Shown piece by piece: positions 5,111 through 40,525 of a DNA stretch of 64,000 bases. A program made the translations under genes and the position numbers. Source of the DNA: Lentibacillus persicus (GTDB lineage Bacteria; Bacillota; Bacilli; Bacillales; Amphibacillaceae); the NCBI RefSeq assembly GCF_900112705.1, contig NZ_FOMR01000002.1, positions 124,001 through 188,000 of the forward strand, in the 5' to 3' direction. A model generated the notes under the pieces. That model saw only the letters and a list, made by a program, of their open reading frames with translations. It did no database searches and had not been told where the DNA came from. Position 1 is the stretch's first letter. Each line of letters begins with the position of its first letter.

Positions 5111-5638
5111 ATGAAACAAACCATTCGTTCGTTTGCAATTGGTCTGTTGACAGCCGGTCTTGTGATGCTCGGTATTTTTTACTTCGGAGATTATTCACAA
5201 TCAGACGCTCAAGGCAATTTAACGACCGAAGAGATGATTAAAACCGTTGAATCGGAAGGTTATCATGTACTGACAGAGTCTGAATACATTTCCGCCTCAG
5301 TTCAATCAGAGGATAGCGCAGAAACAAATGAGGGTGAAGAGAACACCCAGGAAGACTCTTCTGATGAGGATGAGAATACTGACACAGATGGTGAGCAAGA
5401 AGAAAATTCCGGGAATGCTGAAGAAACTGAACAGACGAGCTATACACTGACAGTAGAGTCTGGTGTCATCCCATCTGAAATCAGTCAAACGCTCGAAGAC
5501 AATGACATTATTGAAGATGCCGGAGCATTTACGTCATTTATGGAAGACGAAGGCTACAGCCAATTAATTCAGCTTGGAGAATTTGACCTTTCAAGCAACA
5601 TGGATCATCACGAAATAGCCGAAACAATAACAAATTAA
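5111..5638 (+). CDS. Membrane-anchored protein with YceG/MltG-like C-terminal segment (YqzC-like)
   Basis: 175 residues: an N-terminal membrane anchor (about 7-27), a short helical segment (LTTEEMIKTVESEGYHVL), a very acidic low-complexity linker (about 65-110, nearly all Glu/Asp/Ser/Asn/Thr), then a segment YTLTVESGVIPSEISQTLED resembling the LysM-like part of the MltG/YceG family. The catalytic lytic transglycosylase domain is absent, so it cannot be a full MltG. B. subtilis YqzC, near the phosphate genes, has a similar plan; the equivalence is likely but not proved. The linker suggests a halotolerant host. Confidence 0.75.
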   Translation: MKQTIRSFAIGLLTAGLVMLGIFYFGDYSQSDAQGNLTTEEMIKTVESEGYHVLTESEYISASVQSEDSAETNEGEENTQEDSSDEDENTDTDGEQEENSGNAEETEQTSYTLTVESGVIPSEISQTLEDNDIIEDAGAFTSFMEDEGYSQLIQLGEFDLSSNMDHHEIAETITN

Positions 5639-5639
5639 C

Positions 5640-5880
5640 AGGCTGGGACATAACTTATATATCCAATATAAAAGACGAACTATAATCAAGGTTAGCGGAG
5701 GAAAAATGCGGAGACTCCTGCGGGAAGAGAGGCATAGGTAAGACAACGAAGTGCCTTGGCACGAGTTGGCTTAACAGCCGCCCGCGGAAAGCGAAGCATA
5801 TTTCCGGAGCGGCGTATCCCGCTTCCTTTCCTAATTATCGTTCGTCTTTTCATTTATCTTTAAACCTTTTGTCCCAGCCT
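5640..5880. repeat. Inverted-repeat element with GGCTGGGACA-type ends (MITE-like)
   Basis: Ends AGGCTGGGAC (5640-5649) and GTCCCAGCCT (5871-5880) are perfect inverted repeats. A second internal pair matches at 16 of 17 positions (5670-5686 against 5834-5850). The interior is much more GC-rich than the flanks and holds a core (5776-5812) shared with the element at 27950-28185. There is no coding frame. Short elements of this look are common between genes in halotolerant Bacillaceae (general recollection). The right end is followed by a T run and could also end transcripts from the YqzC-like gene. Confidence 0.8.
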
Positions 5881-5908
5881 CTTTTTTCATTTGTCAGTAT
5901 TCAATTGT

Positions 5909-6565
5909 TTAATTTAGTTTGTACGATTCACCTTTTACGAGATATAAAATATTTTCACCGATATTCGTGATATGGTCGGCGAATCGTTCGATGTAACGGG
6001 CACTGAAAGCCATTTGCATCACGTACTGAATTTTTTCGGGGTTTGTGGCCGTTTCATTTAAAATATCCTTGATAACCCACTCATATAATCGATCAACATT
6101 ATCATCCATTTTCGACAGCTTACCGGCAATCGAAATATCATCATACTCGAACGCTCTCATTGCAATGTTATTCATTTCAACTGCCATATCCCGCATTTCC
6201 TTTATTTTTGGATGAACCGTCAGGCGATGATCTTCCCCTAAATGAAGAGTTGATTTGGCTATATTTTTTGCATTATCTGCCATCCGTTCAATATCAGTTG
6301 TGATCTGCAAAGCGATGACTAACCGGCGTAAGTCCGTTGCAACCGGCTGCTGTTTTGCAATGAGTAAGATCGTTTGTTCGTTGATAGCAAGTTCTTGTTT
6401 GTCGATCGCCTTATCTTCATCAATAATAGTGTTTGCCAATGCCAAATCCTGGTTATATAGCGCATCAACTGCTTTAAACAGGGCGTTCACTGAGGCATTC
6501 GACAATGATATGATGTCTTCCTTTAAATTGCTTAAATCTGCTTCAAACTGCTCCCGGACTACCAT
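5909..6565 (-). CDS. phoU: Phosphate-specific transport system regulator PhoU
   Basis: 218 residues made of two repeated three-helix PhoU units, each with an acidic metal-binding motif (DIERMADNAKNIA near 92 and YIERFADHITNIGE near 190). PhoU couples the Pst transporter to the PhoR/PhoP phosphate sensor and limits phosphate influx. It begins 18 nt after pstB and is the last gene of the pst operon. In B. subtilis phoU is not attached in this way, whereas many other bacteria have this arrangement. Confidence 0.96.
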   Translation of the reverse strand: MVVREQFEADLSNLKEDIISLSNASVNALFKAVDALYNQDLALANTIIDEDKAIDKQELAINEQTILLIAKQQPVATDLRRLVIALQITTDIERMADNAKNIAKSTLHLGEDHRLTVHPKIKEMRDMAVEMNNIAMRAFEYDDISIAGKLSKMDDNVDRLYEWVIKDILNETATNPEKIQYVMQMAFSARYIERFADHITNIGENILYLVKGESYKLN

Positions 6566-14987: not shown

Positions 14988-15060
<73 letters not shown>

Positions 15061-15135
15061 ATATCTGGTTTTCATTCTAACCTTCTTTTTGCATACCGAG
15101 TGTAACTTCTCATTCGGACTTAATCAAATTATGTA

Positions 15136-15228
15136 TGGAGGAGGTAGAGGGATTCGAACCCCCGCGCGGTTTGACCCGCCTGTCGGTTTTCAAGACCGAT
15201 CCCTTCAGCCAGACTTGGGTATACCTCC
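15136..15228 (-). tRNA. tRNA-Ser (TGA)
   Basis: A long-variable-arm tRNA with anticodon loop CTTGAAA and acceptor GGAGGTA/TACCTCC; CCA is encoded. The discriminator base reads T (U73), where serine tRNAs normally have G. Confidence 0.95.
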
Positions 15229-15236
15229 GAATTCAA

Positions 15237-15313
15237 TGGTGGACCCTGCAGGATTCGAACCTGCGACCGATCGGTTATGAGCCGATAGCTCTGACCAGCT
15301 GAGCTAAGGGTCC
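15237..15313 (-). tRNA. tRNA-Ile2 (CAT, probable lysidine-modified)
   Basis: A cloverleaf with anticodon CAT, acceptor GGACCCT/AGGGTCC, discriminator A and encoded CCA. It is not initiator-like. The other CAT tRNA here has the elongator-Met body, whereas this one has the GGACC acceptor and GGCTCATAACC loop region typical of Bacillus tRNA-Ile2, which TilS modifies to read AUA. The Ile2 call is an inference from similarity. Confidence 0.8.
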
Positions 15314-15335
15314 GTATTAAATTTACATAAGATTA

Positions 15336-15412
15336 TGGGGCGACCGGTGGGGATCGAACCCACGAATGCCGGAGCCACAATCCGGTGCGTTAACCACTTC
15401 GCCACGGCCGCC
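15336..15412 (-). tRNA. tRNA-His (GTG)
   Basis: Anticodon GTG, acceptor GCGGCCG/CGGTCGC with discriminator C and the extra encoded G at -1 that marks histidine tRNAs; CCA is encoded. Confidence 0.96.
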
Positions 15413-15427
15413 GTCAAGATTTATTTT

Positions 15428-15504
15428 TGGTGGCGGCGGAGGGGATCGAACCCCCGACCTCACGGGTATGAACCGTACGCTCTCGCCAGCTGAGCTACAC
15501 CGCC
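15428..15504 (-). tRNA. tRNA-Met (CAT), elongator
   Basis: Acceptor GGCGGTG/CGCCGCC, anticodon CAT, discriminator A, encoded CCA. The body matches the Bacillus elongator tRNA-Met pattern rather than initiator or Ile2. Confidence 0.93.
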
Positions 15505-15507
15505 AAA

Positions 15508-15582
15508 TGGCTCCACAGGCAGGATTCGAACCTGCGACCGATCGGTTAACAGCCGATAGCTCTACCACTGAGCTACTGTGGA
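15508..15582 (-). tRNA. tRNA-Asn (GTT)
   Basis: Acceptor TCCACAG/CTGTGGA, anticodon GTT, discriminator G, encoded CCA. It is first in the cluster, just behind the promoter, 3 nt before tRNA-Met. Confidence 0.96.
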
Positions 15583-27574: not shown

Positions 27575-27949
27575 ATGTTTCGACAATCTTTTTGGCAAAG
27601 TCGAAAAAAATTCCTCCCATTGGTAAGAATAAAATAGTCTGTCCGAAATTTTCGGCTCCCTGATTAACCATTAGAAGGGCGTTATACTGTATTATTGTAC
27701 CTCTGGAAGCACTTATATAAACGTACTTTGCGAGCAATTACCCACATACCTTTTATTCTACATTGCTGCTGGTTATTCCTCCTTGGGAAATAATGTTTTA
27801 TTTTTCTGAATTGTGATCTGTGGAAAAATGAACGATTAATACATTTTTTACACAAATTATAATTATAATATAAAAGCCTGAAATATGCCATGAAAATGTA
27901 ATGAGAAAAAGGAGATTTCCAGAACACTTCTGTTTCAAGACAAAATCCA
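27575..27949. other. AT-rich intergenic region upstream of dnaG
   Basis: No convincing gene. It probably contains the vegetative dnaG-sigA promoters; several weak -10-like TATA stretches occur near 27680-27720 on the minus strand but none has a clean -35. A purine-rich AAGGAGG at about 27778-27784 (minus strand) is followed only by a frame of about 21 codons. Confidence 0.35.
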
Positions 27950-28185
27950 TAAACTGCGACGTACTTTAAATAGAAGTTGGGTCTTCAGCTACCGCTCCGG
28001 AAATACACGCCGCTTTCCGCGGGCGGCTGGTGAGCCCACGGAAAGCGACGAGCAAATCTTCCACCGAATCCGCTACGAGTTGCGAGGAGTGCTGCGTACA
28101 AAAGAGCATGCAACACGACGAGCACCATGTATATTCCAGCTGCGTCGCTCGAGAGGCTAATTAATTTTCACTAGTTCGCAGTTTA
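27950..28185. repeat. Inverted-repeat element with TAAACTGCGA ends (MITE-like)
   Basis: Ends TAAACTGCGA (27950-27959) and TCGCAGTTTA (28176-28185) are perfect 10-nt inverted repeats. The GC-rich interior holds a core (27992-28028) that matches the core of the element at 5640-5880 in reverse orientation. No coding frame. It lies between ppsR and dnaG. Confidence 0.72.
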
Positions 28186-28238
28186 CATCAATTGCGTAAT
28201 TGCGCCGATTGAGGATCGGTCGTTTATTGGAAAGCGTA

Positions 28239-32790: not shown

Positions 32791-32844
32791 AATTTTATCC
32801 TCCATATCTTTGGAAATAAAGTGAAACTCCAATCAGTGGGGTTA

Positions 32845-32890
32845 AAAAGGAACAAAGGCTAAGTTCGTCATGTCAATAGCAGCGCCTTTG
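32845..32890 (-). promoter_or_regulatory. Terminator-like hairpin between T-box and glyQ
   Basis: On the minus strand CAAAGGC and GCCTTTG pair across a 24-nt loop and are followed by TTCCTTTTT, about 50-60 nt before glyQ and well past the T-box terminator. Its role is unknown; see findings. Confidence 0.5.
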
Positions 32891-32981
32891 TGACCCGCAT
32901 TCGCAGGCCCGAAACGAATCGGACATTTACTGGCACTTAGCTTTCGTACTTTGAAAGATTAGTACCAGTTAAACGCGGGAT

Positions 32982-33025
32982 AAAAAAACCGTCCCTATAC
33001 CGGTATGCTGCCGGTATAGGGACGG
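32982..33025 (-). terminator. T-box terminator of glyQS
   Basis: CCGTCCCTATACCGG pairs perfectly with CCGGTATAGGGACGG (15 bp) and is followed by seven T. It is the off-state hairpin of the glyQS T-box. Confidence 0.93.
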
Positions 33026-33203
33026 AGAATAATCCGCGGTTCCACCCTACTTGCTCCTTTTATGAAAGAGCCACTTTATCGCAATTGCTCCGGAGCGCCG
33101 TTCCTTATCTCCTGTTATCCGGCTCCCACCATTCCGGATTCGCTTTTAACATGACCAATAAGTACTCTTCTCCGTCAATGCAACTGATATTTGTTAATTA
33201 TGT
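33026..33203 (-). promoter_or_regulatory. Glycine T-box riboswitch (leader of glyQS)
   Basis: The minus-strand leader starts near 33203. The T-box sequence AGTAGGGTGGAACCGCGG (33034-33051) is an almost exact match to the conserved element and pairs with uncharged tRNA acceptor. A GGC triplet in the stem I region (33097-33099) fits a glycine specifier, though the specifier-loop placement is not proved. Uncharged tRNA-Gly would favour the antiterminator over the hairpin at 32982-33025. Confidence 0.92.
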
Positions 33204-39310: not shown

Positions 39311-40525
39311 TCAATCTCCTTGGTCTAATGGTTCATGTTTGACAATATTTTCTTCCACAGCAATATATAAGATTAATTTAACTTTACCATTCTCGGTTGT
39401 TTGTTGCAAAATATTTTCAGAAGTAATTTCAGCGTCCGGTGCAAGCCGCAACCGGAGTTCTCGTTTAGCTTGTTCTATACCGACTTCAACAGCCTCCTGC
39501 CTGCTCCGTTCATTCTCAAAATACTGTTTTTCATTGAGGGTTGTCTTCATTAATGACAGAGGAAGCTTCCATTTAAAAAAGTATAAATCCTTTTCATGTT
39601 GTTCCCGATAAACATCAGTATAATCCGGATCGCCAAAACCCCATATGGGAATTTGGATGTCACTGATTTTCAAATGATATTCAGTTTCATAATCACCGGT
39701 TAATTGTTCATAATTAGCTTTTAAAGGTATGCTGACTTCCGTTTCATACCATGTTTTAGCGATAACCTCTCCCTCTGCTGTAACCAGTTCATATCGATCA
39801 TTTTTGTCATCATCTTCAGCTTCATCGGCAAACTGTATTTTCCCCGACACCAGAACATCTCCCTGCTTTACGTAATCATTTACGTTGACTTGTGGAAGCC
39901 CTTTTGAAACATACATATTTTCAATAACGCCTTCCTTGGCTGCTACAAGGTTTCTCGGTCCTTCAATTTCTTTTTTTTCAACGATTGACTTTTCGACACC
40001 TTCCAGTAAAAAGCTTGTCCCCTTTTGCTTCACACCAACCCATAACAGTTCAGGTATATCATTAATTAAGTTTTGCTGAATTTCACTTGGTGAGTCGAGC
40101 GTCAACGCCCATGCCCCCTGATGTACACCGTATTCAGACAGCTTATCAGTGATTTTCTCTTCAATATCCTTAGGTACACCCGCGATTTCAACCTCCCATA
40201 TAACATTAGAAAGGAAAAAAACAAGCATCAAGCTTAAGATGATACCTATCAAAAACTCTTTTTTACGAATGAACTTTTTCATCAAAAAGGGATAGCCGTG
40301 TTTATCTGTAAAAGAAAGCTTATAATGTGTCCCGCGTTTAAGACGTCTTAAGCTCGCAATATCCTTTAATTTAACATTGCCGGTACATTTGTCGTCAGCG
40401 TGTTTTTTAATATTCCAGACAACAATGTTTTGCTCAGTACACTTTTGAAAAAAAAGCTCCGGCCGTGCTCCCTTTATCAGAACAGTTACATACCCTGTAA
40501 TTGAAGTCCCTTGAATATGTTTCAT
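39311..40525 (-). CDS. yqfD: Sporulation protein YqfD
   Basis: 404 residues: a cytosolic N-terminus, one transmembrane segment (about 92-113, LIGIILSLMLVFFLSNVIW), then a large external domain with WEVEIAGVPKDIEEKITDKL and the family-specific GVKQKGTSFLLEGVEKSIVEKK. In B. subtilis it is a SigmaE-dependent gene of the mother cell (homologue knowledge). Follows yqfC by 21 nt. Confidence 0.93.
   Translation of the reverse strand: MKHIQGTSITGYVTVLIKGARPELFFQKCTEQNIVVWNIKKHADDKCTGNVKLKDIASLRRLKRGTHYKLSFTDKHGYPFLMKKFIRKKEFLIGIILSLMLVFFLSNVIWEVEIAGVPKDIEEKITDKLSEYGVHQGAWALTLDSPSEIQQNLINDIPELLWVGVKQKGTSFLLEGVEKSIVEKKEIEGPRNLVAAKEGVIENMYVSKGLPQVNVNDYVKQGDVLVSGKIQFADEAEDDDKNDRYELVTAEGEVIAKTWYETEVSIPLKANYEQLTGDYETEYHLKISDIQIPIWGFGDPDYTDVYREQHEKDLYFFKWKLPLSLMKTTLNEKQYFENERSRQEAVEVGIEQAKRELRLRLAPDAEITSENILQQTTENGKVKLILYIAVEENIVKHEPLDQGD

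Follow-up and report, generated by a model that had tools for sequence, protein, structure and literature searches.

The 37-nt core shared by two repeats of Lentibacillus persicus is one side of a structured module of about 120 nt, and our results indicate that this folding module probably belongs to MITE-like elements with differing ends, moved by a putative transposase. The elements display sharp ends (type A), high copy number, polymorphism at two sites and covarying helices, and their modules are found singly or as inverted pairs and with nested inserts. The copies would move as DNA, with the putative transposase acting on the inverted ends, and the module may be kept either because a single folded strand is needed for movement or because it shields the element in read-through transcripts.

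The core and its folded module

The preliminary description placed the core at 27992-28028 (+) and 5776-5812 (-) of the window, i.e., the whole stretch of 64,000 nt analysed here, and both occurrences were found to be exact (0 mismatches; chance expectation 0.00, 100 shuffles). This observation was correct but understated the unit, as the core constitutes the 3' part of a longer one, best read on the opposite strand, which on the module strand takes the form AGCGGAGGAAATATGCG-GAGACTCCTGCGGGA ... CCCGCGGAAAGCGA-AGCATATTTCCGGAGCGG. The inner pattern CCGGAAAT-N9-TTTCCGCGGGCGG, allowing up to 3 mismatches, matched 76 times in the 3.31-Mb genome, and its reversed control 0 times; 75 distinct copies were kept, one match being merged with another copy from which it did not differ over 150 nt. 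By the chosen criterion 62 of the 75 copies were intact, and 61 of them were aligned, with one row of 110 nt omitted, to build the covariance model R1. In its own genome R1 found at least 121 matches (150 candidates scored); genome searches score limited numbers of candidates, and copy counts are thus lower bounds. Over the 64,000-nt window, with E up to 5, R1 detected nothing beyond an intact module at 5693-5812 (+; 134.5 bits, E 4e-33) and a match at 27992-28066 (-), whose score of 29.7 bits marks it as a damaged copy.

The module is well supported as a folded nucleic acid, its base pairing being backed by strong covariation. Among the 61 copies of the own genome, 97.9% of cells were paired (34-46% in the slid-partner control) and 13 of 39 pairs had changed on both sides; four of five covariation measures were reached by 0 of 500 shuffles, and further pair types by 118 of 500. 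Across the order, 100 matches displayed 93.9% of cells paired and two-sided changes in 32 of 39 pairs, with a covariation of 0.385 against 0.111 in shuffled and at most 0.055 in slid alignments, and 0 of 500 shuffles reached the observed values on all five measures. Because two exact blocks served to select the 80 loci of this order-wide alignment, which was moreover fitted to the model, the invariance of helix 3 is partly built in and says little. The compensatory changes proposed in the preliminary description as a check for RNA thus exceed those of shuffles on four of five measures in the own genome and on all five order-wide. In the A2 inner helix, a C-A mismatch at columns 61/216 is kept in 78 of the 100 order-wide matches, within a helix that otherwise covaries.

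The strand on which selection acts was assessed from G-T versus A-C counts, with mixed outcomes. The first count gave 23 vs 14 for the outer arms order-wide and 17 vs 16 in the own-genome alignment, and the model alignment 79 vs 102, 78 of the latter in one conserved C-A column. Unanchored helices (Watson-Crick count only) yielded 22:63, and 62:36 on the reverse complement, with 83:104 for random stretches and 24:29 for own copies; the 22:63 arose because the chosen helices included alternative pairings, such as TGCGG with CCACA. With sequence-anchored helices, the ratios on the module strand were 15:1 for the outer helix and 5:3 for the inner one, and 17:9 in the own genome, in a test whose pair range was narrowed, and the C-A column dropped, after the first count had been seen. 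Taken together, these tests are only suggestive of one-strand selection, and the selected form may be RNA or single-stranded DNA; of the folded RNA put forward initially, the folding holds in the own genome as well as order-wide.

Type A elements and exchanged ends

The intact module lies within a complete type A element of 239 bp at 5641-5879, with genome copies of equal length. Its terminal inverted repeats are GGCTGGGACA on the left (5641-5650, +) and TGTCCCAGCC on the right (5870-5879, +), the latter followed by TC and T6 up to 5886, which closes a terminator-like stem; the inner arms surround AAAAGACGAACGATAAT, and the predicted fold of 5640-5880 has -86.1 kcal/mol (z -4.65). At least 58 matching pieces were found in the genome, at least 22 of them covering 230 or more of the 239 bases (40 of 142 candidates scored). 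A length of exactly 239 bp is shared by 12 copies, with a median interior identity of 90% and a flank identity of at most 43%, and their interiors are at least 95% identical in 10 of 66 pairs. As in MITEs, the elements are short with terminal inverted repeats (type A, and the ends of types B and C), and the 12 type A copies are scattered in unrelated flanks. Target-site duplication was not detected in 25 type A copies (direct matches at the edges averaging 0.68, vs 1.02 in swapped pairs), nor were palindromic flanks above swapped controls.

The left sides of the 75 copies comprised 37 with GGCTGGGACA/AAAGACGAAC, 31 with AAACTGCGA and 7 unclassified. Type B and C elements are mostly 377-494 bp long and bounded by CATAAACTGCGA and, on the opposite side, TCGCAGTTTACATC; the two types look like one frame read in both directions. 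A second-module signature (subtypes T2, T3 and T4) lies downstream in 27 of the 31 copies with AAACTGCGA-type ends, and the paired modules are oppositely oriented, for instance at C8:39239-39413 (-) and 39458-39577 (+). Since one module occurs, singly or as an inverted pair, with ends of at least two kinds that are unrelated, the ends are truly exchanged, and since the type A and type B/C frames both carry it, the module has been put to use in more than one frame. The inner module shared between elements with exchanged ends, as announced in the preliminary description, was borne out by the genome-wide collection that it had recommended, in which the 75 copies, apart from the 7 unclassified ones, carry two unrelated end types rather than the same ends everywhere. 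That the 37-nt match represents just part of a single degenerate repeat consensus is scarcely credible: the module is common to all copies, as such a consensus would have it, but the unrelated end types stand at fixed distances from it.

The second occurrence of the core lies in a type B element with CATAAACTGCGA...TCGCAGTTTACATC inverted ends at 27948-28189 (the matched end patterns enclose 240 bp, and one base was added per side by eye). Judged from its sequence, this copy is a hybrid left by a deletion, in which the two modules of an inverted pair became joined at the direct repeat TGGTGAGCC (28028-28036), and hence a degenerate rather than a typical member. It retains a half module at 27992-28036 (-), which contains the core and starts as in intact copies, and a second-module remnant of type T3 at 28129-28149, GTATATTCCAGCTGCGTCGCT, matching loci L049, L054, L121, L037 and L032. 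In L049, L054 and L121 a full module is followed by a T3 module, each with TGGTGAGCC, while L037 and the window copy have a single TGGTGAGCC with the T3 module flank directly after it. A nested insert occupies approximately 28047-28127, with 7-nt GACGAGC direct repeats at 28047-28053 and 28117-28123. The otherwise equal L037 lacks it, which suggests that such deletions occurred more than once; in L032 this insert occupies the corresponding point of a longer T3 module that retains the 5' part, and the insert therefore probably predates the deletion. Stretches of the insert are 96-97% identical to L032 and L033, and related inserts lie at the module tip in L027, L030, L096, L103 and the congener locus L225. 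Its arms, GCGAGGAGTGCTGC...GCAACACGACGAGC, would by eye pair through several G-A mismatches, and such inserts are often found at module tips. The fold of the broken element has a z of -2.10. The 27992 copy would thus be a dead derivative, an inverted-pair element whose middle was lost by recombination at TGGTGAGCC; the recombination product offered among the initial explanations fits this copy, with its two half modules joined at the repeat.

Distribution across Bacillales and position relative to genes

R1 matched 32 of 40 genomes (21 of 29 genera). In a wider search, in which up to 24 candidates were scored for each genome, it matched 112 of 150 genomes from the order, and 38 yielded no match; the own genome is included in both counts. 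Present in 65 of the 84 genera sampled and matched by no Rfam 15 family in the searches made, the module is an unclaimed structured nucleic acid that is widespread in a large bacterial order. Among the matches listed, carriers include Peribacillus, Priestia, Sporosarcina, Fictibacillus, Neobacillus, Halobacillus, Oceanobacillus, Planococcus, Lysinibacillus and one Pisciglobus. Searched with blastn, no phage record matched the module, and among plasmid records only three Priestia plasmids did. At the site of phoU (window 5909-6565, identified as PhoU by Pfam), 1 of 12 congeners carries the module; by eye, 8 of the other 11 display the same small hairpin and T-run in its place, another two form different hairpins, and in the last the neighbouring gene is missing. 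At the Kinase-PPPase/dnaG site, 4 of 12 congeners carry modules, of differing forms. Presence and absence between species could also mean loss.

All position counts refer to mechanical reading frames, not annotation (at least 100 aa for type A). Around 25 complete type A elements, 32 gene 3' ends face the element at a median of 23 nt, 23 of them within 60 nt, and 16 facing 5' ends lie at a median of 127.5 nt, 3 within 60 nt; none of the 23 elements having both neighbours lies between divergent genes. The 75 own-genome copies comprise 26 convergent, 5 divergent, 22 + 16 codirectional and 6 unclassified sites. Of 82 sites order-wide, 7 fell inside frames and 18 had no pair of neighbours within range; the 57 that were classified comprise 21 convergent, 21 + 12 codirectional and 3 divergent ones, at medians of 142.5 and 80 nt from the facing 3' ends. 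In the same loci, gaps spanning 150-1400 bp, among them those with a module, are 40 convergent vs 51 divergent. As regards terminator features of type A, the position just past genes fits; the loop exceeds 200 nt, and of 12 copies 6 have TTTT no more than 12 nt from the right end and 5 have AAAA on the left, so that the terminator look, with a T-run in half of the copies, is not general. A scan of 5550-5950 for short-loop terminators found none, with only 0.2 expected. Type A elements may nonetheless work as large-loop terminators in both directions, and module elements offer many natural sites for testing whether repeats act as terminators.

These positions bear on a rival reading, in which the modules are bidirectional terminators or 3'-UTR structures useful to the host, ending or protecting transcripts and spread by recombination instead of transposition. 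The placement of type A at gene 3' ends, the scarcity of divergent sites order-wide relative to the gaps in the same loci, and the small hairpin that replaces the module at phoU in congeners all speak for it. We regard it as possible but unlikely, however, given that sharp ends in unrelated flanks require a moving mechanism, that order-wide copies lie farther from the facing 3' ends, and that promoter avoidance alone predicts the same pattern.

Mobility and relation to known repeats

Three further explanations were weighed against mobile elements of the MITE type. The folded RNA could itself be the heart of the mobile element throughout the order and aid its own spread, in a bacterial SINE-like or RNA-guided manner, while end modules, like the nested RNA modules Bacillaceae-1 and the GACGAGC insert, would be swapped between frames; we consider this a rather doubtful possibility. 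It is quite improbable that the shared sequence is a protein-binding DNA site, with the blocks GACTCC-GCGGGA, GGAAAGCG and GGAGCGG read by a DNA-binding protein, as the order-wide covariation of the helices is not needed for the binding of double-stranded DNA; yet the 5' block GACTCC-GCGGGA is near-invariant in the 61 own-genome copies, although it was not used in picking them, whereas the 3' blocks belonged to the search pattern and their invariance says less. The protein site of the preliminary description, a pair of half-sites, is accordingly insufficient, but the internal-loop blocks are compatible with a bound protein.

REPINs are inverted pairs of hairpins, and the inverted module pairs resemble them, which raises the possibility of REP/REPIN-like hairpins mobilised on single-stranded DNA by a Y1 RAYT transposase. 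Long Y1-family frames were seen by eye in 11 of 13 module-rich genomes vs 6 of 13 in which no module match was found. Nevertheless, the 19 RAYT-like neighbourhoods (15 in module-rich genomes) contained no strong module match and a single weak one (17.4 bits, E 0.03), and the RAYT-like gene of the own genome is flanked by different short repeats; despite the shared architecture, the module is without RAYT association save for that weak match, and this origin is very improbable. The searches (PF01797 in 26 genomes, the module in the 19 neighbourhoods) did not support a REP/RAYT origin. The own-genome gene (L388:854-1636 (-), G000:C4) encodes a RAYT-like Y1 transposase of 260 aa with PF01797, and has its own short GGGGGACG...GTCCC repeats on either side. 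At L056:1743-3029 (+), an IS110-family transposase (PF01548, PF02371) adjoins a module cut at CCCGCAGGAG; it probably arrived by inserting into the module rather than being the mover of the module, and may reflect site-specific insertion into the repeat.

The elements are best read as modular MITE-like repeats in the manner of BOX and bcr, with small-element ends exchanged around a conserved folding core. BOX elements of Streptococcus pneumoniae and S. suis are modular, folded, MITE-like and intergenic, with repeats inserting into one another, and two kinds in S. suis, with boxA/boxC and boxE/boxF ends, surround the same boxB modules (PMC3049150). This is the nearest precedent, with two sets of end modules round one inner module; going by those descriptions, boxB varies in number, whereas the 120-nt module occurs singly or as an inverted pair and order-wide. 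The bcr1-bcr3 repeats of the Bacillus cereus group are described as high-copy, MITE-like and intergenic, often in UTRs, and bcr1 is called specific to that group in a cited title (PMC3446304), unlike the order-wide module, to judge by description. Bhal-1 of Bacillus halodurans, a folded intergenic family of 74 bp with 36 copies in a Bacillaceae genome (PMC2267715), could be part of the module or the same thing, on a comparison of descriptions. MRSC-65-2, a high-copy, covarying candidate for a mobile or repeat element that is perhaps relevant as DNA, is set apart by its description, having one long stem, a UYCCGG repeat and a distribution over diverse phyla (PMC11109978), in contrast to the several helices and mainly Bacillales range of the module.

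No Rfam 15 family matched the module, either at the gathering score over the window or with E up to 1 in nine loci; its conserved strings returned only unrelated papers or none from the open-access literature, and the portions of PMC8632094 available held nothing on it. Bacillaceae-1 (RF01690), which matches window 32843-32907 (+) with 39.8 bits, also matches nested inserts in 3 of the nine loci (L035, L061 and L075), not the module itself, and ties a known RNA to repeat elements; it is a separate model of 67 positions (PMC2864571), nested in some module copies. At L054:1036-1153, outside the module, an RsaE/RoxS sRNA match scores below gathering (58.8 of 79 bits). The window also holds a T-box leader at 33015-33187 (-) and a cluster of six tRNA genes at 14988-15582 (-).
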